Source: Rhizobium sp. Q54 (GTDB taxonomy: Bacteria > Pseudomonadota > Alphaproteobacteria > ATCC43930 > CGMCC-115725). From it: a stretch of DNA of 49,771 nucleotides. How positions within the stretch are numbered: position 1 is the first letter of the stretch; every line of letters starts with the position of its first letter. This document shows positions 7,997-19,291 of the stretch, one piece after another. The position numbers were made by a program, and so were the translations under genes. The notes under the pieces are model-generated. The model worked only from the letters and a program-made list of their open reading frames with translations, did not search any database and was not told where the DNA came from. Location: the NCBI GenBank assembly GCA_945861155.1, contig CAMATN010000022.1, positions 1 to 49,771 of the forward strand, read 5' to 3'.

Positions 7997-9826
7997 TTAG
8001 TATCCGGCAGCCGCGCCGGCGGGTCGGCGCGGGTCGTTGACCCCGACGAGAAGGCGGTCGGGGCCGATCGCGATCAGCTCGACCGCGCCCCACGGTGCTT
8101 GCTCGGCAAGAAGATGACCGCGGGACGCGAGCGCGGCGAGGGTCTCGGCCGAAAAGCCGCCGCGCTCGTGAAAAAGCGTGTCCGGCAGCCATTGGTGATG
8201 AAAGCGCGGCGCGGCGACGGCCTCCGGCGGGGTCAGACCGAAATCGACGATGTTCACGATCGTTTCGAGGACAGCGGTGGTGATGCGCGGGCCGCCGGGA
8301 CTGCCGAGCACCAGGACCGGCCTTCCATCCTGCTCGACGATCGTCGGGCTCATCGACGACAGCGGCCGCTTGCCGGGCGCGATCGCGTTGGCCCTGCCTT
8401 GCACCAGCCCAAACAGATTAGGCGCGCCCGGCTTTACCGTGAAATCGTCCATTTCATTGTTGAGCAGGAAGCCGGTGCCGGGTGCGACCATGCCGGAACC
8501 AAAATTTCCGTTCAGCGTATAAGTAATCGCGGCGGCGTTCCCTTCGCCGTCGACAATCGAATAATGCGTAGTCTCGGCGGGTTCATGAGGCGGGATGCCT
8601 GGCCTAAGTGTACTGGAGGGCGTGGCCTTGTCGGGGTCGATTGCGGCCCGGATCGCGGCGGCGTGGCCCGGCGACAACAAACGCGGGCGCGGGTCGGCGA
8701 CAAATTCCGGGTCGCCGAACGCCGTGTTGCGGTCGACATAGGCGTGGCGCATGGTCTCGGCCATCAGGTGAACGGCTTGCGGCGAGCGGTAGCCGAGCCC
8801 CGCCAGATCCCATCCCGCGAGGACGTTGAGCATCTCGCACAACACCGTGCCGCCGGCGCTCGGCGGCGGCGCCGACAGCACCCGATAACCGCGGTAGGAG
8901 CAGGTGACCGGCGCCGCTTCGCTGACCGTGTAGTCGGCGAAATCCTGCGCCGTCAGAACGCCGCCCCGCGCCGCAGCGGCGCGGCCGACCGCAGCGGCGA
9001 TCGGCCCGCGATAAAAGGCGTCGGGTCCGGTGTCGGCGATCAGCGCCAGCGTTTTCGCCAGGTCGGGCTGGACGAGGCGGTCGCCCGCGCCGTACGGCGT
9101 CCCGTCGGCGCGCAGGAAAATCCGCGCCGCCTCGGGATCGGCCGCGAGCCGCGGCGCCCGCGCCGCGATGATCGCGGCGTCGGCGGCGCCGAGCACAAAC
9201 CCGTCGCGGGCAAGCGCGATCGCCGGCGCCATCGCCGCGGCGCGGCCGAGCCGGCCGTATTTGGCGAGGGCGTGGTCGAGCCCCATCACCGTGCCCGGCA
9301 CGGCGGCGGCGCGGTAGCCGTAAAGGCTCGCCTCGCGCACAGCCTCTCCGGCAGCGTCGAGGTACATGCCGGGGGTGGCGGCGCGCGGCGCGGTCTCGCG
9401 AAAGTTGATAACAATCGGGCTGCCACCGGCCGGGCGGATCAGCATGAACCCGCCGCCCCCGATATTGCCGCAGCACGGGTCGACGACCGCCAGCGCATAG
9501 CCGACCGCGACGGCCGCATCGACGGCGTTGCCGCCGGCCTCCAGAATGTCGCGTCCGACCGCGCTCGCCGCGTGATGCGCGCTGACGACCATTCCGCGCC
9601 TGCCTTCGCCCAGGGATGAAGCGGCCGCGACGCCGGGGGAAAGCAGTGATGCCGGCAGCCCGACAAGAAAAGCGACAAGCGCTCCGAAAAGAGCATTTCG
9701 GTTGATAGCCCAAGAATACGTCAAGGTACGGGAGCCGCGGGCATCGCTTCGCGGCTCTGCGCGAGGGTGCGTCACCTTTGAAAAAGATGGTAAATTGATC
9801 AAATTTAACCACGAATTGTGATGCAT
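7997..9826 (-). CDS. ggt: Gamma-glutamyltransferase
   Basis: This periplasmic N-terminal nucleophile hydrolase cleaves glutathione and other gamma-glutamyl compounds. It has a signal sequence (ALFGALVAFLVGL...GVAAAS), the large-subunit start GMVVSAHHAAS, and ETTHYSIVDGEGNA. The first Thr of TTHYS is the autocleavage site and nucleophile in known GGTs. NNEMDDF, PLSSMSPTIV, GSPGGPRI and FHHQWLPD follow, all close to the E. coli enzyme. The start is uncertain: this ATG gives 609 residues but puts ~35 extra residues before the signal peptide, while a TTG at 9724 would give 575 residues starting at the signal. The AT-rich stretch at 9780-9820 could be the promoter, favouring the TTG. Confidence 0.92.
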   Translation of the reverse strand: MHHNSWLNLINLPSFSKVTHPRAEPRSDARGSRTLTYSWAINRNALFGALVAFLVGLPASLLSPGVAAASSLGEGRRGMVVSAHHAASAVGRDILEAGGNAVDAAVAVGYALAVVDPCCGNIGGGGFMLIRPAGGSPIVINFRETAPRAATPGMYLDAAGEAVREASLYGYRAAAVPGTVMGLDHALAKYGRLGRAAAMAPAIALARDGFVLGAADAAIIAARAPRLAADPEAARIFLRADGTPYGAGDRLVQPDLAKTLALIADTGPDAFYRGPIAAAVGRAAAARGGVLTAQDFADYTVSEAAPVTCSYRGYRVLSAPPPSAGGTVLCEMLNVLAGWDLAGLGYRSPQAVHLMAETMRHAYVDRNTAFGDPEFVADPRPRLLSPGHAAAIRAAIDPDKATPSSTLRPGIPPHEPAETTHYSIVDGEGNAAAITYTLNGNFGSGMVAPGTGFLLNNEMDDFTVKPGAPNLFGLVQGRANAIAPGKRPLSSMSPTIVEQDGRPVLVLGSPGGPRITTAVLETIVNIVDFGLTPPEAVAAPRFHHQWLPDTLFHERGGFSAETLAALASRGHLLAEQAPWGAVELIAIGPDRLLVGVNDPRRPAGAAAGY

Positions 9827-10099: not shown

Positions 10100-11791
10100 A
10101 TGTCATCTTCCCCGATCGCTAATCTCGGGATTGTCGGCGGCGCGGCGGCATCGGTCGGCCCGGGGCGACAGCATCTCGATGACATTGAGGACCAGGCAAT
10201 GGCGCGGCTCGCGACGCGGCAAGGTGAGGGCGATAGGCTCGCGGCGGCAGCGATCGACACGTTCGGGGGCAATGCGGCCGGGGGCAATGTGGTTGGCGGC
10301 AACGTCATCGAGCTCGATTCCCCGCAGCACCGACGTGGCGGCCTCAACGACCGGAAATTTTCGAAAACGCCGCGGATCAATCCGCGCGCCGTCGCGCTCG
10401 CGGTGCGCGTCGCCGATGCGCTGGTCATCGCCGCCGCGGGGGCCGTGGCGTATTGGCTTGAGCCCGGCTTTTCCTGGCCGATCGACCCGACGGCGGCATT
10501 CACCGCGCTTGCCCTGATGGCGATGCTGGTGCGCTCGCCCAATGCGGAGCCTCGCCTGCTGCACGATTCTCTGCGACGGCCATTGTCGCGGCGCCTGGCC
10601 GATTGCGCCCTGCGCACGCTGTTGCCTTTCGTCGTCGGCGTTCTGGTCCTGATTGTTCTGGTACCTGCCGGCAATGCGGTGCGAGCGCCGCTGACCCACT
10701 GGCTGACCCTGTGGGGAATGGGCGCGGTGGGCGGTATCTGCGCGGTGCGGCTCGGGCTCGCGGCCTTGACCGCGCAGTGGCGCCGCCAGGGGCGCCTCAA
10801 GCAGGCGGTGGCGATCTTTGGCACCGGCGATCTGGCGGAACGGCTGCTCGGGCGGTTGCGGCAATCCTCCCCCGATGCGATCGAGCTGGTCGGGGTGTTC
10901 GACGATCGTTCGCGCCGTCGCATCGCGAGCCCGGGTCTGCGCAGCCTGGCGGTCGGCACCTCGGACGATCTGGTCGCGCTGTCGCGCCACCGCGACATCG
11001 ACCGGGTTCTGGTCGCGCTGCCGCATTCGGCCGAGCAGCGGGTCACCGAGGTCTTGAAGAAGCTGCGCCAGATGCCGGTCGAGATCAGCCTCGCGCCTGA
11101 CATGGTCGGCTACAATCTCCCGTTCCGCGAATCCGACGAGCTTGCCGGCCTGCAGCTGGTCGAAGTCTACGGGCAGCCGCTGACCTTCGGGCAGATCCTG
11201 CTGAAGAGCGCGATCGACAAGACGCTGGCCGGCTTGGCCCTGCTCGCCGGCGCGCCGCTGCTGATCGCATTGGCGGTCGCGATCAAGCTCGACAGCAAGG
11301 GGCCGGTCCTCTTTCGGCAGAACCGCCACGGTTTTGGCGACCGGATGATCGGGGTCTACAAATTCCGCACGATGTACGCCGACATGGCCGATTACGACGG
11401 CGAGGTGCAGGCCCGGCTGAACGACCCGCGAATCACCCGGATCGGCCATTTCCTGCGGCGCTGGAGCCTTGACGAGCTGCCGCAGCTTTTCAACGTGCTG
11501 CGCGGCGAGATGTCGCTCGTCGGCCCGCGGCCGCATGCCGTCAGCATGACCGTCGAAGAGCGGCCCAACCGCGACATCGTGCCCGATTACGCGCTGCGTC
11601 ACCACGTCAAGCCGGGCATTACCGGGTGGGCGCAGGTCAACGGACACCACGGCCCGGTCGCCACCGAGGAGGATTTGCGCGCGCGCGTCCGCTGCGATCT
11701 CGACTACATCAACAATTGGTCGCTGTGGTTCGATTGCCAGATCCTCCTGCGCACCGTGAAGATCGTCCTCGGGCAGCGCCACGCTTATTGA
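10100..11791 (+). CDS. Polyprenyl-phosphate hexose-1-phosphate transferase (WcaJ-like)
   Basis: This 563-residue inner-membrane enzyme would start exopolysaccharide repeat-unit assembly by moving a hexose-1-phosphate onto undecaprenyl phosphate. After a low-complexity Gly/Asn-rich N-terminus (~95 residues) come four hydrophobic segments. A Rossmann-like CoA_binding_3 domain follows ([15 protein letters not shown]). The catalytic Bac_transf domain begins with the membrane-reentrant helix at [11 protein letters not shown], and then has [37 protein letters not shown] and [17 protein letters not shown] lies 11 bases before the ATG. It heads the plus-strand EPS cluster and is divergent from ggt. 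Which sugar is used cannot be told. Confidence 0.93.
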
Positions 11792-11917: not shown

Positions 11918-12598
11918 GTGAGGCTTGGGTGGCTGTTTTCGATTGCCCTGCTGGTGCTTGTCCCGCTCGGCGGGTGCGCGCCCTCCGCGCCCCGGTTGGC
12001 GGGCCCCGGTGTGTTTCCCGGCGGCGTCCCGATAACCGACGAGCATGTGCTGGCGCCGAACGACGAGCTCGAGGTCCGGTTTCCGTTCTACGCCGATCTG
12101 AATGACCGGGTCCTCGTCGGTCCCGATGGGCGCCTCTCGCTGCAGCTGGTCAACACGGTCCCGGTCGGTGGGCTGACGGTCGCCCAGGCGACCAGGCTGA
12201 TCAACGAGCGCTATGCCGGGGTGATACGCGAGCCGCAGGCGACGGTCACGTTGCGCACCTATGCGCCGCAGCAAGTCTTTGTCGACGGCTGGGTCAACAA
12301 TCCGGGGCTGGTGCGCAGCGACGTGCCGCTGACCGTGTCACGGGCGCTGGCGCAGGCGGGCGGTGCCAAAAGCGGCGCCCATACCGACCATATCCTGGTA
12401 TTGCGCCGCGGTTCCGACGGCAAACTCTATTACTATGAGGTCACGCTCGGCAATTATGGCGGAGCCGGCGCCGAGGATCCGCTCCTCAAATCCTATGACG
12501 TCGTGTATGTTCCGCAGACGGTTTTTGCTTCGGTGTCCGACTTTTTGGCCAATTACGTCAGGAATGCGCCACTCTATTTCCAGTATACAATTCGGTAA
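11918..12598 (+). CDS. Polysaccharide export OPX lipoprotein (Wza-type)
   Basis: This 226-residue protein belongs to the outer-membrane polysaccharide export family. It starts at a GTG with GGGAG upstream and has a lipoprotein signal ending in the lipobox L-G-G-C. The poly_export domain is visible (LAPNDELEVRFPFYADLN...VGPDGRLSLQLV...VPVGGLTVAQATRLI). An SLBB-like segment follows (QQVFVDGWVNNPG). It is shorter than E. coli Wza and ends soon after the SLBB region, so it may lack the C-terminal helix that forms the outer-membrane pore. It lies 126 bases after the initiating transferase and 48 before the Wzz-type gene. Confidence 0.92.
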   Translation: MRLGWLFSIALLVLVPLGGCAPSAPRLAGPGVFPGGVPITDEHVLAPNDELEVRFPFYADLNDRVLVGPDGRLSLQLVNTVPVGGLTVAQATRLINERYAGVIREPQATVTLRTYAPQQVFVDGWVNNPGLVRSDVPLTVSRALAQAGGAKSGAHTDHILVLRRGSDGKLYYYEVTLGNYGGAGAEDPLLKSYDVVYVPQTVFASVSDFLANYVRNAPLYFQYTIR

Positions 12599-12646: not shown

Positions 12647-14116
12647 ATGGCCGCTAACCCCTATGAGCTAACGACCCGCGAGCTCCTCAGCATCCTGTTC
12701 AAGGAATGGCGCAAGCTGGCTGGCGTCTTTCTGGGATTGGCGCTGCTGGTGATCGGCTATTCCTATACGTTGACGCCCTACTACGAGGCGACCACCCGGT
12801 TGCTGATCAAAAGCGGCCGCGAGTTTCAGGTGCGTTCCGATCCGAACCAGCCGATCGCCTCGGTCCCGTCCACGACAAAGCAGGAGATCGTCAATTCCGA
12901 GATTCAAATCCTGACCAGCCGCGACCTGATCGAGGCGGTGATCACCCGGATCGGCGCCGACCGGCTCTACCACGGCAGCGCCGGCTGGTTCACCTCGGAC
13001 GCCGGGGCTCTCGAGACGGCGGTGCGTCAGTTCTACGCCGATTTCAAGGCGATTCCGGTCGAATTGGCCAATGTCATCGAAATTACTTATCGCAACCCGA
13101 ATCGTGCTATCGCGGTCGAGACGCTCGATATTCTCGTCGACCTCTACCAGAAAAAGCACGCGGAGATGTTCAGCGATCCGCGCCACAAATTTCTCGAACA
13201 ACAGACCAAGCAATACGAGGATCAGCTTGACGCGGCGACCCGCAGCGTCACCGACATCAAGAACGCCAAATCGCTGTTCGATGTCGACACGCAGCGCGCC
13301 CGGCTGCTCGACGAACGCGCCTCGATCAGTACCATGCTGCAGCAACTGCGCAGCCAGTCGGTCGACGCCCGCCAGCGGATCGATTTTCTTAATGCCCGGC
13401 TGAAATCGACCCCGCCGCTGGTCGCCGCCGGCGACAGCCAGGCCGATGTCATCGAACAGGCCAAGGCGCGGCTGCTCGACCTCCAGGTCAGGACGCAACA
13501 GCTGCGCGAGCGCTATGTCGGCAACGTCAAGCCGTTGCAGGACGCCGAGCAGGAGATGGCCAGCGTCAGGCAATTCATCAGCGGCCCGGGTGCGGCGCGC
13601 AAATCATGGTCGCAGCGCAACACCGCCTACGACGACATGGTGGTCGCGCTGAACCGGGCGCAGGCCGACGCGGCGCCGCTCGACCAGCAGATCAAGCTGC
13701 GCACCGAGCAGGCCGCCGCGCTCGACGAGAGGCTGCGCAGCCTCGAAGAGGGCGGCAAGACGCTCGACGACGCGCAGCGCGAGCGCCGCACCCTCGAGGA
13801 ACTGGTCCGCACCTACCGGGGCCGCTACGAAGAGGCCCGGATGAACGCCGACCTCGACCGCGGCAATGTGGTCAGCCTCAGCGTCGTCCAGAAGCCCTCC
13901 GCGCCGGCGCGCGCGGCCGGACCGAGACACCTGCCCTACGGTCTGGCCGGCGTGTTGATCGGCCTCCTCGGCGCGGCTGGCGTCCTCGTCTACCTGCTGG
14001 TCTTCCGCGAGACGCTGATCACGGTCGAGAGCGTCGAGCGCATCATCGGGGTTCCGGTTCTCGCCTCGGTGCCGACCTCGCGCCGGCCGAGGAACGGCAA
14101 CCTCCAGGCCGCATGA
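12647..14116 (+). CDS. Wzz/GumC-type chain-length protein without kinase
   Basis: This 489-residue polysaccharide co-polymerase has a cytoplasmic N-terminus, a transmembrane helix near residues 24-43 (LAGVFLGLALLVIGYSYTL), and a long periplasmic part with coiled-coil helices at roughly 170-400. A second membrane helix lies at 430-454 (LPYGLAGVLIGLLGAAG). The tail ends GVPVLASVPTSRR with no Walker motifs. The kinase-like part is encoded separately two genes downstream, the usual split arrangement. AAGGAC precedes the ATG. Together with the OPX lipoprotein it should set chain length and span the periplasm. Confidence 0.92.
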   Translation: MAANPYELTTRELLSILFKEWRKLAGVFLGLALLVIGYSYTLTPYYEATTRLLIKSGREFQVRSDPNQPIASVPSTTKQEIVNSEIQILTSRDLIEAVITRIGADRLYHGSAGWFTSDAGALETAVRQFYADFKAIPVELANVIEITYRNPNRAIAVETLDILVDLYQKKHAEMFSDPRHKFLEQQTKQYEDQLDAATRSVTDIKNAKSLFDVDTQRARLLDERASISTMLQQLRSQSVDARQRIDFLNARLKSTPPLVAAGDSQADVIEQAKARLLDLQVRTQQLRERYVGNVKPLQDAEQEMASVRQFISGPGAARKSWSQRNTAYDDMVVALNRAQADAAPLDQQIKLRTEQAAALDERLRSLEEGGKTLDDAQRERRTLEELVRTYRGRYEEARMNADLDRGNVVSLSVVQKPSAPARAAGPRHLPYGLAGVLIGLLGAAGVLVYLLVFRETLITVESVERIIGVPVLASVPTSRRPRNGNLQAA

Positions 14117-14163
14117 CGCGTTCCGATTCGCCCGGCCGCCGCGGCTGATTGCGGGACCGCGCG

Positions 14164-15792
14164 ATGTACGAGAGCTTTTACGGCCTCACCCGCACGCCGT
14201 TTGCGGTCACCCCCGACCCGGCGATGCTGTTCATGAGCAAGGTGCATCGAGAGGCTCTGGCGACGATCATCTACGGGGTCGAGACCCGCAAGGGGTTCAT
14301 CGTCTGCACCGGCGAGGTCGGGACCGGCAAGAGCACGATCATCCGGGCGTTTTTCGACCAGACCAGCGCCGACGCGGTCAAGCTGATCTACATCTTCACG
14401 CCGCAGGTCACCCCGCTCGAAATGTCCCGGTACATCTGCGGAGAACTCGGGCTGGAGGACCCCGACAGCATTTTCGCCGCGGTCCCCCGGCTGCAGCTCA
14501 AATTGCTCGAGGAGTTCGAAGCCGGCCGGACCGTCGTCCTGATGATCGACGAGGCGCAGCTGTTGCCGCCGGAGACGCTCGAATTCCTGCGGCTCCTCAG
14601 CAATTTCGAAACCGACACCGAAAAGCTGATCCAGATCGTGCTGGTCGGCCAGCCCGAGGTCGACACGCTGCTGGCCCGGCCCGATATGCGGCAGGTCAGC
14701 CAACGCGTCGCGCTCCGGGCGAGGCTCGCCGCCTTCAGCGCCGAGGAAAGCGTCGACTATATCGAGCATCGGTTGCGGATCAGCGGCGCCGGCGAGCTTG
14801 CCCAGATCATGTCGCCGAGCGCGGCGTGGCTGATCGTCGAAGCGGCCGGCGGCATTCCGCGAATCATCAACATCCTCGCCGACAACGCGCTGATTGCCGG
14901 GTTTGCCGCCGGACAGCGCCCGCTGGGCAGCCAGCTCGCCGCCCGTGCCGTCGGCGAATTCCTGGGGAATTCGGAAGCCGCCGCCCCGGTCGTCCGGCAA
15001 CGCCTCGGCGCCGGCTGGCGCGCCGCCCGCCGCTTGCGCAGCGCGCTCGTCCGCGAGCAACGCGAGCCGGTCGAGTGGGACTCCGCCGTGCCGGCGGCGA
15101 CGCCACCCCCGGCGGCGCCCCTGGCAAAGCCGCCCGCCCCGCCAGGCGGCACTCCTGTTTGGCCGGGCCCGGTTCGGGCTCGGGTCGGCCCGCCCGCACA
15201 AAAGCCGTTCGGCAGGCGCCCGGCGCCCCGCCTTGACGCGACCCTCGCCGGGCCGAACGGCGCCGGTTGGGAGATCGCCCCCCTGGCGGCAAATGCGCCG
15301 GCAAATGCGGCGGCGCCTACAGCGGATTCCGGCGTTGCCTTCGGCACGCCGGCCTCGACAGCCGGGATGACCATCGTCGAACCGGTCGCGCAGCCCGTCG
15401 CCTTAGAGCCCGTCGTCGCGCAGCCCGTCGTGGAGCAGTCCCCGACATTGCCGTCCCCGCCCTTCAGGAGGGAGAGCGAGGGTCTCGTCCTCCCCCGCCT
15501 CGCCCCGACCGTCTCTGCCTCCAGCCCCCAGCCCTCCCTCTCGCGCAAGTGGAGGGTCAGCGAGGGACCCGGGACCGACCGTCGGCTCGATCGTGGTTCC
15601 GACGTCAACGACGCCGCGACGGTTGGGTCCCCGGTCGGCTCTCTTCCGGGTGCCGCCGAGGCTGCGCCGAACGGTACAACCATGCCTCCGGCCGCGGCTG
15701 ACCTGACCGAAGCCGCGGTACGATGGCCGGCCCTGTCGCGGGTTCGCTCAGGGCTGCAGGCCGTGCAGCGGCGCGACCAGAATCGGGTTTAG
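14164..15792 (+). CDS. ExeA-like AAA+ ATPase of EPS locus
   Basis: This 542-residue protein has an N-terminal ATPase domain of the ExeA/AAA_22 kind found next to EPS genes, including exosortase-type loci. MYESFYGLTRTPFAVTPDP opens it. Walker A is GEVGTGKST (Lys56), Walker B VVLMIDEAQLL, and LVGQPEV and SQRVALRARL follow. After about residue 275 the sequence turns into a long Pro/Ala-rich tail. Part of that tail (bases 15451-15570) is an intergenic-type palindromic repeat read in frame, as LPSPPFRRESEG...SASSPQPSLSRKW. The first ATG was taken; a TTG five codons upstream is possible. The tail is unlikely to be structured. Its exact role in EPS export is unknown. Confidence 0.88.
   Translation: MYESFYGLTRTPFAVTPDPAMLFMSKVHREALATIIYGVETRKGFIVCTGEVGTGKSTIIRAFFDQTSADAVKLIYIFTPQVTPLEMSRYICGELGLEDPDSIFAAVPRLQLKLLEEFEAGRTVVLMIDEAQLLPPETLEFLRLLSNFETDTEKLIQIVLVGQPEVDTLLARPDMRQVSQRVALRARLAAFSAEESVDYIEHRLRISGAGELAQIMSPSAAWLIVEAAGGIPRIINILADNALIAGFAAGQRPLGSQLAARAVGEFLGNSEAAAPVVRQRLGAGWRAARRLRSALVREQREPVEWDSAVPAATPPPAAPLAKPPAPPGGTPVWPGPVRARVGPPAQKPFGRRPAPRLDATLAGPNGAGWEIAPLAANAPANAAAPTADSGVAFGTPASTAGMTIVEPVAQPVALEPVVAQPVVEQSPTLPSPPFRRESEGLVLPRLAPTVSASSPQPSLSRKWRVSEGPGTDRRLDRGSDVNDAATVGSPVGSLPGAAEAAPNGTTMPPAAADLTEAAVRWPALSRVRSGLQAVQRRDQNRV
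15451..15570. repeat. Palindromic repeat inside ATPase coding region
   Basis: The stretch ccccgcccttcaggagggag followed by agcgagggtctcgtcctcc, and ccctccctctcgcgcaagtg with gagggtcagcgaggga, has the same C-rich/G-rich hairpin style as the intergenic repeats at 57-160 and 47266-47400. It is read through in frame with no stop. Confidence 0.7.
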
Positions 15793-15931: not shown

Positions 15932-16666
15932 GTGAGCAGCGTCTATGAAGCCTTGCAGCGCGCGAGGCAAGGCGGCGGCGGGCCGGCGCCGCTGCGGCAG
16001 CCGGCGGCGCGCGACAACATCGAGCGCTCGCCGGTGTCGCTCGCTCCGGGTCCGCTGGCGACGCCGCTGGCGCCCCTGTTCGCGGCCATTCGGCCGCTGC
16101 TCGACAGCAAGGAGGGCGTTGTCCTGCACATCGTCGCCGCCACCGCCGGCGAGGGAGCCTCGACGATCGCCCGCGAATTCGCGATGCTGGCGGGCACATC
16201 GGGCCATCGCCGCACCCTGTTGATCGATGCCGACCGGCTCAACCCGCAGACTGCCCGCGCGTTCGATTGCGATACCGGACAGGGGCTGGTCGAGTTTTTA
16301 TGGGGCGGGCTCGACGGCGCCGATGTGGTGCAGCCGGTGGCCGGCACGCTGCTGTCGGTAACGTGCCTGATCGGCGAGCGCGGCCCCGCCTCGGTCGACG
16401 CCGACAGCCTGCGCGAGCTGTACGCCCGCTTGCGCGAGCAATTCGAGCTGATCGTTGTCGATTGCCCGCCGGTCGGCGAAGGTTATTCGGCCTTGCTGCC
16501 GGAGGCGGTTGACGGGGTCATCCTGGTCGTCCAGGCCGAAAAAACCCGCCCGGCCGTCATCGCCCGTGCCAAGGACCTCGTGCAGCAGGCCGGCGGCCAG
16601 GTGCTCGGCGCGGTGCTGAACCGGCGGACCAACTACATCCCGGAATTTCTGTACAAGCTGCTGTGA
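15932..16666 (+). CDS. CpsD/BY-kinase-like P-loop protein, Walker A Lys absent
   Basis: This 244-residue cytoplasmic protein has the layout of the CpsD/Wzc kinase domain: SSVYEALQRARQ at the start, a P-loop region, Walker A' LLIDADRLNPQ and Walker B LIVVDCPPV. The P-loop reads ATAGEGASTIARE, with Ala76 where BY-kinases have the lysine (GEGKST). The C-terminus holds only two tyrosines (NYIPEFLYKLL) rather than a tyrosine cluster. ATP binding or kinase activity is therefore doubtful; it may be a regulatory pseudo-kinase partner of the Wzz-type protein. A GTG start with GGAAGG upstream gives the usual family N-terminus and was preferred over an upstream ATG. Confidence 0.85.
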   Translation: MSSVYEALQRARQGGGGPAPLRQPAARDNIERSPVSLAPGPLATPLAPLFAAIRPLLDSKEGVVLHIVAATAGEGASTIAREFAMLAGTSGHRRTLLIDADRLNPQTARAFDCDTGQGLVEFLWGGLDGADVVQPVAGTLLSVTCLIGERGPASVDADSLRELYARLREQFELIVVDCPPVGEGYSALLPEAVDGVILVVQAEKTRPAVIARAKDLVQQAGGQVLGAVLNRRTNYIPEFLYKLL

Positions 16667-16843: not shown

Positions 16844-16928
16844 AAGATGTTTGTGGCATGATTGGCAGATCAGGACATTTGCCCGTGTTGCCCTGAATTA
16901 CCGCTTTTTAAAACCCTGTCCCCCTATC

Positions 16929-18179
16929 ATGTCCGCCATGAACTTGCCGACAAACCGCGCCCGGATCGCGGTTCTCAACCAGGGTTACATCCCGCATTAC
17001 CGGCTGCGGTTCTTCGAGCTGCTCGCCGAGCGCGGCGGCGCCGAGTATGTCGTCTTTCACGGCGCGCCGCCGTCCTGGGTCGGGGTCGAGGCGGCCAAGG
17101 GCCCGTTCGGCTTTGCCCAGCGCTGGGTGGACAACCGCGAGATCCGCGTCGGCCCGTGGACCGCGATTTACCAGCCGGTGGTCCGCGAAATCCTGACCGG
17201 CGGCTACGACGCGGTCGTGCTCGGGGCCGATCTGAAATTCGTCTCAAGCGTGCTCTTGGCCCTGCTCGCCAGATTGCGCGGTATCGCCGTGTTGTATTGG
17301 GATTTCGGGTATCACCCGAAGCGCGGCTTCAGTCACGGCACGAGCGCGCCCGGCGGCGTGATGGCGGTGGCGCGGCTGGTCAAGAACGCCCTGGCGAAAC
17401 TCGCTGACGGCTATCTAGCCTACACCAAATCCGGGGCGGAACGGCTGGCGGCAATCGGCTATCCGCCCGATCGCATCTTCGTGTTGCAGAACACGATCGA
17501 CATGACCGAGCAGCTGCGCCTCTACGATGCGGTGCAACAGCGGGAGCCCGAACAGATCCGCGCCGAACTTGGGGTGCGGCCCGATTCGACCATATTCGTC
17601 TATCTCGGCCGGCTCGTCGAGTTCAAGCGCGTCGATCTGCTGATCGAGGCGGTGCGCCGGATCGCACGCGACCGCACCACCGCGAAGCCGGTCGAGGCCT
17701 TGATTATCGGCAGCGGCCCACTCGAGGCGGACCTCAAGGAAATGGCGGCGGATGTCCCCGAGGTGCATTTCCTCGGCGCGCTGCCGGCCAACGAGGCGGT
17801 CGCATGCGCGCTGAGAATCGCCGCGGCGGCGGTCATTCCGGGCGCGGTCGGTCTCGCGGTCAACCATGCCTTCGCGCATGGAAGGCCGATGATCACCGGC
17901 GACAACGAGCTGCACGGCCCCGAGATCGAATACATCGTCGACGGCGAAAACGGCATGATCGTGCGGGGCGGCGCCGCGGAGTTCGCCGCCGCGCTCGCTC
18001 GCTTGGCCGATTCGCCCGAATGCCAGGCCAGGCTCGCCGGCGGCGCCCTCGACGCCCGCCAGGGCTTGCGCATGGAAACGATGGTGGAGCAGTTCGACAT
18101 CGGAATCCGCGCCACGCTCGAACGCCGCCGCCTCGGCAGACCCGGCAAGCGGCCGGCGGCATCGGCCGAAATCAAATAG
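16929..18179 (+). CDS. GT4-type glycosyltransferase
   Basis: This 416-residue cytoplasmic GT-B enzyme has an acceptor-side start (RIAVLNQGYIPHYRLRFFELL) and a C-terminal donor domain with FVYLGRLVEFKRVDLLIEAVRRI. ALIIGSGPL and the GPEIEYIVDGENGMIV segment follow, with the glutamates typical of GT4. It is the only glycosyltransferase in the EPS cluster apart from the initiating enzyme, so others must be encoded elsewhere. The start is one of two nearby ATGs (16929 or 16938); no strong ribosome-binding site separates them. The xylanase-like gene begins 11 bases downstream, suggesting translational coupling. Donor sugar is unknown. Confidence 0.88.
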   Translation: MSAMNLPTNRARIAVLNQGYIPHYRLRFFELLAERGGAEYVVFHGAPPSWVGVEAAKGPFGFAQRWVDNREIRVGPWTAIYQPVVREILTGGYDAVVLGADLKFVSSVLLALLARLRGIAVLYWDFGYHPKRGFSHGTSAPGGVMAVARLVKNALAKLADGYLAYTKSGAERLAAIGYPPDRIFVLQNTIDMTEQLRLYDAVQQREPEQIRAELGVRPDSTIFVYLGRLVEFKRVDLLIEAVRRIARDRTTAKPVEALIIGSGPLEADLKEMAADVPEVHFLGALPANEAVACALRIAAAAVIPGAVGLAVNHAFAHGRPMITGDNELHGPEIEYIVDGENGMIVRGGAAEFAAALARLADSPECQARLAGGALDARQGLRMETMVEQFDIGIRATLERRRLGRPGKRPAASAEIK

Positions 18180-18190
18180 GGACCGTTTCG

Positions 18191-19291
18191 TTGCTGTCTC
18201 GCCGGCAGTTTCTGCTCGCCGCCTCGCAGGCGGCGCTCGTCGCGCCGGCGCCAGCACAAGCCGCGCCGATTGCCGGGCTGCGCCGGATCGCGGCGTCGAA
18301 GGGCCTCCTGTTCGGCGCGATGATCCGCGGATCGGCGCTCGGCAAGGACCGCGCGCTGGCCGACATGGCGGCGCGCGAATGCAATCTGTTCGTCAGCCGT
18401 GCGATGCATTGGGATTACGTGGAGCCCAGCCGCGGCGTCTACGAATTCGCGCAGGTCGATGCCGATCGCGCCTGGGCCGAAGCCCACGACATGAAATATC
18501 GCGGGCATGCTCTGGTATGGGGCGAGCATGCGCCGGGATGGTTCAAGAAGCTCGGCGATCGCGCCGACGCGACCCGGGCGATGACCGATCACATCGCCAG
18601 GATATGCCGGCATTTCGCCGGCCGGATGCACTCGTGGGATGTCGTCAACGAGGCGATCAGGCCCGATCTCGGTCGCCCGGACGGACTCCGCCCTACCGCC
18701 TTTCTCGATCTGGTCGGTCCCGAGTACCTCGATATCGCGTTCCGCGCGGCGCGCGAGGCCGACCCGAAGGCGCGGCTCGTCTACAACGATTTCGACGTGG
18801 AACTCGATCTGCCATGGCACCGGCAGAAGCGGCGAACGCTGTTGGAGCTGCTCGACGGCTTCCGCAAGCGCGGCGTCCCGATCGATATGGTCGGGCTGCA
18901 AGGGCATTTGGAAACCGAGAAGATGCCCCATTTCGACGAGAAGGTGTTCGAGGGTGTGCTGCGCGAGCTGACCGACCGCGGCCTCGACATCATGATTACC
19001 GAACTCGATGTCATCGATCGCGGCGCACCCTCCGACATCGCGCGCCGCGATGCGCAGGTCGCCGCGGCCTATCGCCGTTATCTCGACGTTGCGCTGGCCA
19101 ACCGGGCGGTCAAGGCGGTGATCACCTGGGGCCTCTCCGACCGCGACAGCTGGATCACCACCGACCGCTATCCCCAGACAAAGCGCGCCGACGGGCTAAA
19201 GCCGCGCCCCTTGCCGTTCGATACCGATTACGCGCCGAAACCGGCCTATGTGGCGATTGCCGAGGCGTTGAGCGGGGCGCCGGCGCGCTGA
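18191..19291 (+). CDS. GH10 endo-beta-1,4-xylanase-like glycanase, Tat signal
   Basis: This 366-residue glycoside hydrolase family 10 protein has HALVWGEHAPGWF, the acid/base Glu154 in WDVVNEAI, and the nucleophile Glu271 in ITELDV. WGLSDRDSW near the end is the usual GH10 tryptophan motif. The N-terminus MLSRRQFLLAASQAALV is a twin-arginine signal, so the folded enzyme should be exported. The start is a TTG with GGGA ten bases upstream, 11 bases after the glycosyltransferase. Its place in an EPS cluster suggests trimming or release of the polymer rather than plant xylan digestion; that is inference. Its last 46 bases overlap the convergent PrpD-like gene. Confidence 0.92.
   Translation: MLSRRQFLLAASQAALVAPAPAQAAPIAGLRRIAASKGLLFGAMIRGSALGKDRALADMAARECNLFVSRAMHWDYVEPSRGVYEFAQVDADRAWAEAHDMKYRGHALVWGEHAPGWFKKLGDRADATRAMTDHIARICRHFAGRMHSWDVVNEAIRPDLGRPDGLRPTAFLDLVGPEYLDIAFRAAREADPKARLVYNDFDVELDLPWHRQKRRTLLELLDGFRKRGVPIDMVGLQGHLETEKMPHFDEKVFEGVLRELTDRGLDIMITELDVIDRGAPSDIARRDAQVAAAYRRYLDVALANRAVKAVITWGLSDRDSWITTDRYPQTKRADGLKPRPLPFDTDYAPKPAYVAIAEALSGAPAR

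Follow-up and report, generated by a model that had tools for sequence, protein, structure and literature searches.

A BY-kinase homologue without its Walker A lysine, probably a scaffolding partner of a separate PCP-2 protein in an alphaproteobacterial exopolysaccharide locus

The exopolysaccharide (EPS) locus in the window (the whole stretch of 49,771 nucleotides that was analyzed) encodes a CpsD/CapB-like protein which, we conclude, is very probably a BY pseudokinase of the HfsB/EcpK type, encoded as a stand-alone protein and serving, independently of phosphorylation, as a scaffold for a separately encoded PCP-2 protein. The scaffold reading is supported by the sequence, by the clade to which the protein belongs, and by analogy with described systems. 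Judging from its residues, normal tyrosine autophosphorylation by this protein is very unlikely, because it has neither the Walker A lysine nor a tyrosine-rich tail. The initial annotation had proposed a kinase-dead, probably structural partner of the separate Wzz-type protein, and orthologues and a lysine-less clade now lend support to that proposal.

The start of the gene (Table 1) is backed by an (S/T)xxYxALQRAR N terminus common to its three same-genus orthologues, and the translated product contains ATAGEGASTIARE. Its P-loop reads GEGAST, with Ala76 at the position of the Walker A lysine, exactly as first annotated in both numbering and coordinates. The accompanying statement that the Walker A' and B motifs remain holds for Walker B (LIVVDCPPV, with D177) and only in part for Walker A': of the DxDxR pattern of BY-kinases, D99 and D101 are kept, and Leu103 stands at the usual arginine. 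D101 itself varies within the genus: two of the three orthologues have Asn or Val there. The C-terminal tyrosine cluster is absent, as had been noted; the last 30 residues contain two tyrosines (Y235 and Y241), both lying within a conserved IP-type terminus, YIPEFLYKLL. The ring-interface motif EX2RX2R is largely lost, because in the alignment PLFAAIR replaces the EKFRGIR stretch of CapB.

Table 1. Coordinates of the features discussed, in positions of the window
Feature	Coordinates	Strand	Evidence or remark
WcaJ-type initiating phosphoglycosyltransferase (PGT)	10100..11791	+	TIGR03023, 416.7 bits, above cutoff of 410.75
OPX/Wza-type polysaccharide export protein	11918..12598	+	PF02563, E 9.2e-16
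PCP-2 (Wzz/GumC-like) without kinase domain	12647..14116	+	PF02706, E 3e-11; TIGR03007, E 5.5e-33, below cutoff
ExeA-like AAA ATPase, P-loop Lys intact	14164..15792	+	PF13401, E 1.2e-25; TIGR03015, E 2.4e-70, 237 bits (cutoff 324.5); start is the first ATG, by choice; both searches used 14149-15789
BY pseudokinase (CpsD/CapB-like, HfsB-type)	15932..16666	+	244 aa, GTG start
Ala76 codon GCC, in place of Walker A lysine	16157..16159	+	
YIPEFLYKLL C-terminal motif, replacing Tyr-rich tail	16634..16663	+	
Group 1 glycosyltransferase	16929..18179	+	PF13692, E 1.6e-19, search on 16923-18176; start codon by eye
Glycosyl hydrolase family 10 (GH10)	18182..19291	+	PF00331, E 3.5e-81; start provisional

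The closest curated models for the protein were those of BY-kinases, namely, TIGR01007 (E 1.2e-22; 80.5 bits against a cutoff of 108.05), followed by TIGR03029 and TIGR03018, and a Pfam search returned no family at E 0.001 or better. Its sequence relatives in the PDB were VpsO, CapB, Etk, BceF, and Wzc, with weaker matches to MinD-type chains. Its domain is homologous to that of canonical BY-kinases (CapB, VpsO, Wzc, and the XrtA type of TIGR03018), from which it differs in having neither the lysine nor the tyrosine tail and in scoring below the cutoffs of all three models. An AlphaFold2 model computed from a four-row alignment had a mean pLDDT of 40.5, too low for it to serve as a structure.

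As a single residue is substituted in a single draft assembly, the loss of the lysine could be a sporadic change, a sequencing error, or a sign of a decaying gene. We searched 61 genomes (the genome itself and 60 relatives; E up to 0.001) and found a match to the window protein in 47. At the lysine place, the three same-genus orthologues (74, 59, and 57% identity) have Ala, Thr, and Thr, respectively, so that none of them carries a lysine and the alanine is not sporadic among the homologues. The pseudokinase orthologue is carried by four of the eight same-genus genomes (G000 and G002 to G004), all of which also have the Wzz orthologue; no pseudokinase orthologue was found in the other four, three of which are less than 80% complete. 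In all six same-genus pairs, dN was lower than dS (dN, 0.18 to 0.41; dS, 0.73 to 1.22). The gene is thus under purifying selection, and the lysine place is taken mostly by Thr, Ala, Arg, or Ser across the clade; from these two findings we conclude that the loss reflects neither chance nor decay. The explanation by accident or decay, already refuted by the clade described below, is therefore extremely improbable. A plasmid search returned 273 records, every one of them below 60% identity and with less than 80% of the query covered.

To place the protein among its relatives, a profile was built from 11 rows (the window protein and 10 relatives); of the 385 genomes searched in the class, 141 contained a match (E up to 1e-15). 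The tree set (E up to 1e-10, a minimum of 120 aligned letters, duplicates removed), drawn from these matches and from fetched regions, comprised 101 distinct rows, partly hand-picked. Rows left out were the ParA/MinD-type proteins of the same genome (L001 to L004) and L006, L036 to L039, L069 to L071, and L092 to L095 (repeats or PGT loci); a second HfsB-type sequence (L134) was dropped, probably through a split match. Setting aside four TadZ-type rows left 97 BYK-like rows, 55 with [GA]K[ST] and 42 without it, and these proportions are not prevalences, since the profile was built from lysine-less members and part of the row set was hand-picked. Three of the 42 lysine-less rows (L025, L028, and L030) do have a lysine aligned at this column, outside any GK[ST] motif.

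In a maximum-likelihood tree from which the lysine column and the C terminus had been excluded, the window protein fell within a clade of 37 rows (support, 89/80), which together with two lysine-bearing rows forms a branch of 39 (97/91). GK[ST] is absent from 36 of the 37 members, and the lysine place is occupied by Thr (12 rows), Ala (7), Arg (5), or Lys (4), and by other residues, Ser among them, in the remaining 9. The GEGAST and GEGTST forms, raised in the initial annotation as a possible conserved subclade, both belong here. Stand-alone and long (>500 aa) forms occur side by side in the clade, and at one place (L086, the same as row L046) PCP and BYK-like matches lie within one reading frame. 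Ten members (L055, L057, L140, L142 to L145, L025, L028, and L030) form a subclade with 100/100 support, with reading frames of 532 to 783 aa (some cut by locus edges), P-loops almost erased, and tails such as IPRAIYRWL. The sole GK[ST] member, L052 (G392), a 285-aa protein on a long branch, combines a GEGKT P-loop with an IP-type tail and may represent either an intermediate or a regain of the lysine. The lysine has also been lost outside the clade, for example in L149 and in two proteins encoded near a TIGR03015 ATPase, L122 and L123 (G077 and G301). The latter two have the P-loop GAGVTTTAA (Lys to Val) and lie outside the IP-tail clade, and their loss is apparently independent of it.

TadZ/CpaE proteins were also considered as an identity for the window protein, as they resemble it in carrying A, T, or V at the P-loop lysine place. 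The four TadZ-type rows formed a separate outgroup clade (100/100) and have another function, and the candidate was rejected. The same genome encodes one such protein, L005 (G000:C2:11831-12286), with the P-loop RGGVGTTTAA, likewise lacking the lysine; it and the other outgroup rows are presumably TadZ/CpaE pilus proteins.

Loss of the lysine goes together with a distinctive C terminus. A loose IP-type pattern ([YFHSV][IVL]Pxx[ILMVWA], sought within the final 30 residues) is present in 35 of the 42 rows without the lysine versus 1 of the 55 with it; a strict one ([YFH]IPxx[LI]Y) is present in 22 versus 0 of the same rows, and the mean number of tyrosines in the last 30 residues is 1.5 versus 4.5. 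On the tree, the lysine state needs six changes and the tail motif two, and the association is mainly a property of one clade, because there are so few independent events; the Fisher p of 2.9e-18 is overstated for the same reason. An independent-pairs test of lysine against tail yielded four pairs on starred branches and six on all branches, too few for significance. The available portion of the EcpK paper (PMC12004946) does not describe this C-terminal IP motif or a clade joining it to lysine loss. A broader proposal, speculative and rather unlikely in our estimation, is that the IP-type C terminus defines a large clade of pseudokinases in Alphaproteobacteria, with stand-alone and long, probably PCP-fused, forms. 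In place of a tyrosine latch that can be phosphorylated, such a terminus would provide a permanent latch locking the PCP ring, and polymerization and export would then run without phosphorylation cycles, perhaps by means of nucleotide occupancy or an extra ATPase.

Among the nearest described counterparts is HfsB of the Caulobacter holdfast system, whose PCP is HfsA. A search for HfsE-like PGTs in the 385 sampled genomes of the class, using a family that among 14 controls matched only Caulobacter vibrioides, gave its best matches in G315 and G102 (624 and 608 bits; cutoff, 750). In both genomes, a stand-alone BYK-like gene with a GEGVST or GEGTST P-loop lies no more than about 4 kb from the HfsE-like match, beside PCP and OPX genes. 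The G315 protein (L133) is HfsB by synteny, and the comparison is with this protein rather than with C. crescentus HfsB itself. It shares 29% identity with the window protein by BLASTP (E 3e-17) and was placed in the same 37-row clade, and the P-loops read GEGASTIAREFAMLA in the window protein versus GEGVSTVAREYARLA in the HfsB type. Like the window gene, the HfsB-type genes of G315 and G102 stand alone near a kinase-less PCP and an OPX gene, and their products have V or T for the P-loop lysine and no tyrosine-rich tail. The HfsA-type PCP tail, MPVLAVAP, also resembles the GVPVLASVP found in the tail of the window PCP. Unlike in the window protein, where the terminus is YIPxxLY, the HfsB-type C terminus is YRPPAFLKR, and the two hfs-like regions showed no ExeA-like ATPase, in contrast to the window locus. 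According to the EcpK paper, HfsB is without catalytic residues and stabilizes HfsA, and EcpK of Myxococcus xanthus is a pseudokinase that is important for EPS and binds its PCP, EpsV (PMC12004946). As described there, EcpK has lost all Walker motifs, whereas the window protein keeps Walker B and most of the P-loop, and EcpK, unlike the window protein, is not encoded beside its PCP; the likeness is drawn from that description, with EcpK lying outside our tree.

By analogy with EcpK/EpsV and HfsB/HfsA, the fold, PCP binding, ring assembly, and phosphorylation-independent function of the window protein are most likely those of a scaffold. The neighboring PCP-2 has a cytoplasmic tail of about 36 aa (boundary set by eye) containing IIGVPVLASVP, and the pseudokinase most likely docks on this short tail. 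Its conserved C-terminal helix would sit against the base of the transmembrane helices of the PCP, and the pseudokinase would in this way hold the ring that couples Wzy polymerization to export through the OPX protein.

Such a scaffold may retain some role for nucleotide, as Walker B and D99/D101 are kept. A refinement compatible with the scaffold reading is that the protein is kinase-dead yet still binds nucleotide, with ADP or ATP occupancy switching the PCP ring. Gly73, Gly75, D99, D101, and D177 are all present in the window protein, and Wzc K540M, in which the same lysine is lost, is reported to be octameric in a structure solved with ADP and Mg (PMC8285477), so that in Wzc lysine loss is compatible with both ring assembly and nucleotide binding. 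Nucleotide independence, which the initial annotation had entertained, is for this reason not established by the missing lysine. Against the occupancy switch, the remaining motifs decay in lysine-less rows, with D101 of Walker A' kept in 10 of 42 (versus 54 of 55 lysine-bearing rows) and D177 of Walker B in 29 of 42 (versus 54 of 55), and L143 to L145 have no recognizable P-loop. We therefore regard the switch as doubtful.

Another possibility is that the adjacent ExeA-like ATPase has taken over control of the PCP, leaving the CpsD-like protein as an adaptor only. The ATPase does have its P-loop lysine, as annotated, and the residue is number 56 if the ATG at 14164 is the start. All four same-genus carriers of the pseudokinase also have an ATPase orthologue, the ATPase lies nearby in three more regions from the same bacterial family (L076 to L078), and in Sphingomonas LM7 the AAA+ ATPase PrmE is reported to be needed for promonan EPS, next to a BY-kinase called genuine (PMC11340318). 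We examined 38 regions around TIGR03015-type ATPases, from 64 places listed, with the window's own place and that of the lysine-less G008 lying outside the 38. A BYK-like gene was present in 26 of them, with the lysine in 24 and without it in 2 (L122 and L123); adding the window and G008 makes the lysine-bearing share 24 of 28. Conversely, among 19 hand-picked lysine-less regions, the ATPase was present in 4, and of the other 15, 9 are uncut by a contig edge and 6 end at one. Two of these six are from same-genus genomes that encode the ATPase elsewhere; in G002 it lies on the same contig, beyond the fetched region. Because of this distribution, the ATPase neither follows nor needs lysine loss, and the suggestion in the initial annotation that control had passed to it is not borne out, nor is its role as a substitute for the kinase; we consider a transfer of control improbable. 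The ATPase may nevertheless be a regular partner in the same bacterial family.

The genes of the locus run in the order WcaJ-type PGT, OPX, Wzz-type PCP, ExeA-like ATPase, pseudokinase, group 1 glycosyltransferase, and GH10. The promonan locus prmA-Q of Sphingomonas LM7 shares with it the WcaJ-type PGT, Wza, AAA+ ATPase, Wzz, CpsD/CapB-like, and GH10 genes, although its CpsD/CapB-like protein, PrmG, is termed a genuine BY-kinase by its authors, unlike the window protein (PMC11340318). A GH10 gene lies downstream of the pseudokinase gene both in the window and in L075 (G019; 8348-9472), directly so in L075. Despite the ATPase, which scores below the TIGR03015 cutoff (Table 1), an XrtA/PEP-CTERM EPS system is unlikely, because no exosortase match (TIGR02602) was found in the draft genome, with a weak control in which 1 of 14 genomes matched and none exceeded the cutoff.

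We also searched for kinases and phosphatases in the genome, a 226-contig draft that is 96.87% complete and from which genes may be missing. TIGR01007 gave four matches in the draft, none over the cutoff: the window protein and three weaker ones, one of which reads GKGGVGKTT, presumably a MinD-type P-loop. The draft yielded no match to the LMW-PTP (Wzb-type) phosphatase family, which matched 11 of 14 controls, and none to the CpsB/CapC family, which matched 1 of 14. These results fit the pseudokinase reading. The absence of a phosphatase is not a rule, because an LMW-PTP match is present in 8 of 12 further genomes, the same-genus carrier G002 among them.

In the standard model, cycles of tyrosine phosphorylation are essential for PCP-2 proteins. 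Proteins of a clade that has lost both the lysine and the tyrosine tail, here in a draft genome that also shows neither of the two known phosphatase families, offer natural systems for testing how these machines run without phosphorylation. The pseudokinase idea itself has already been published (PMC12004946). The C-terminal IP signature may in turn serve as a sequence marker for finding further pseudokinases and systems of this kind.
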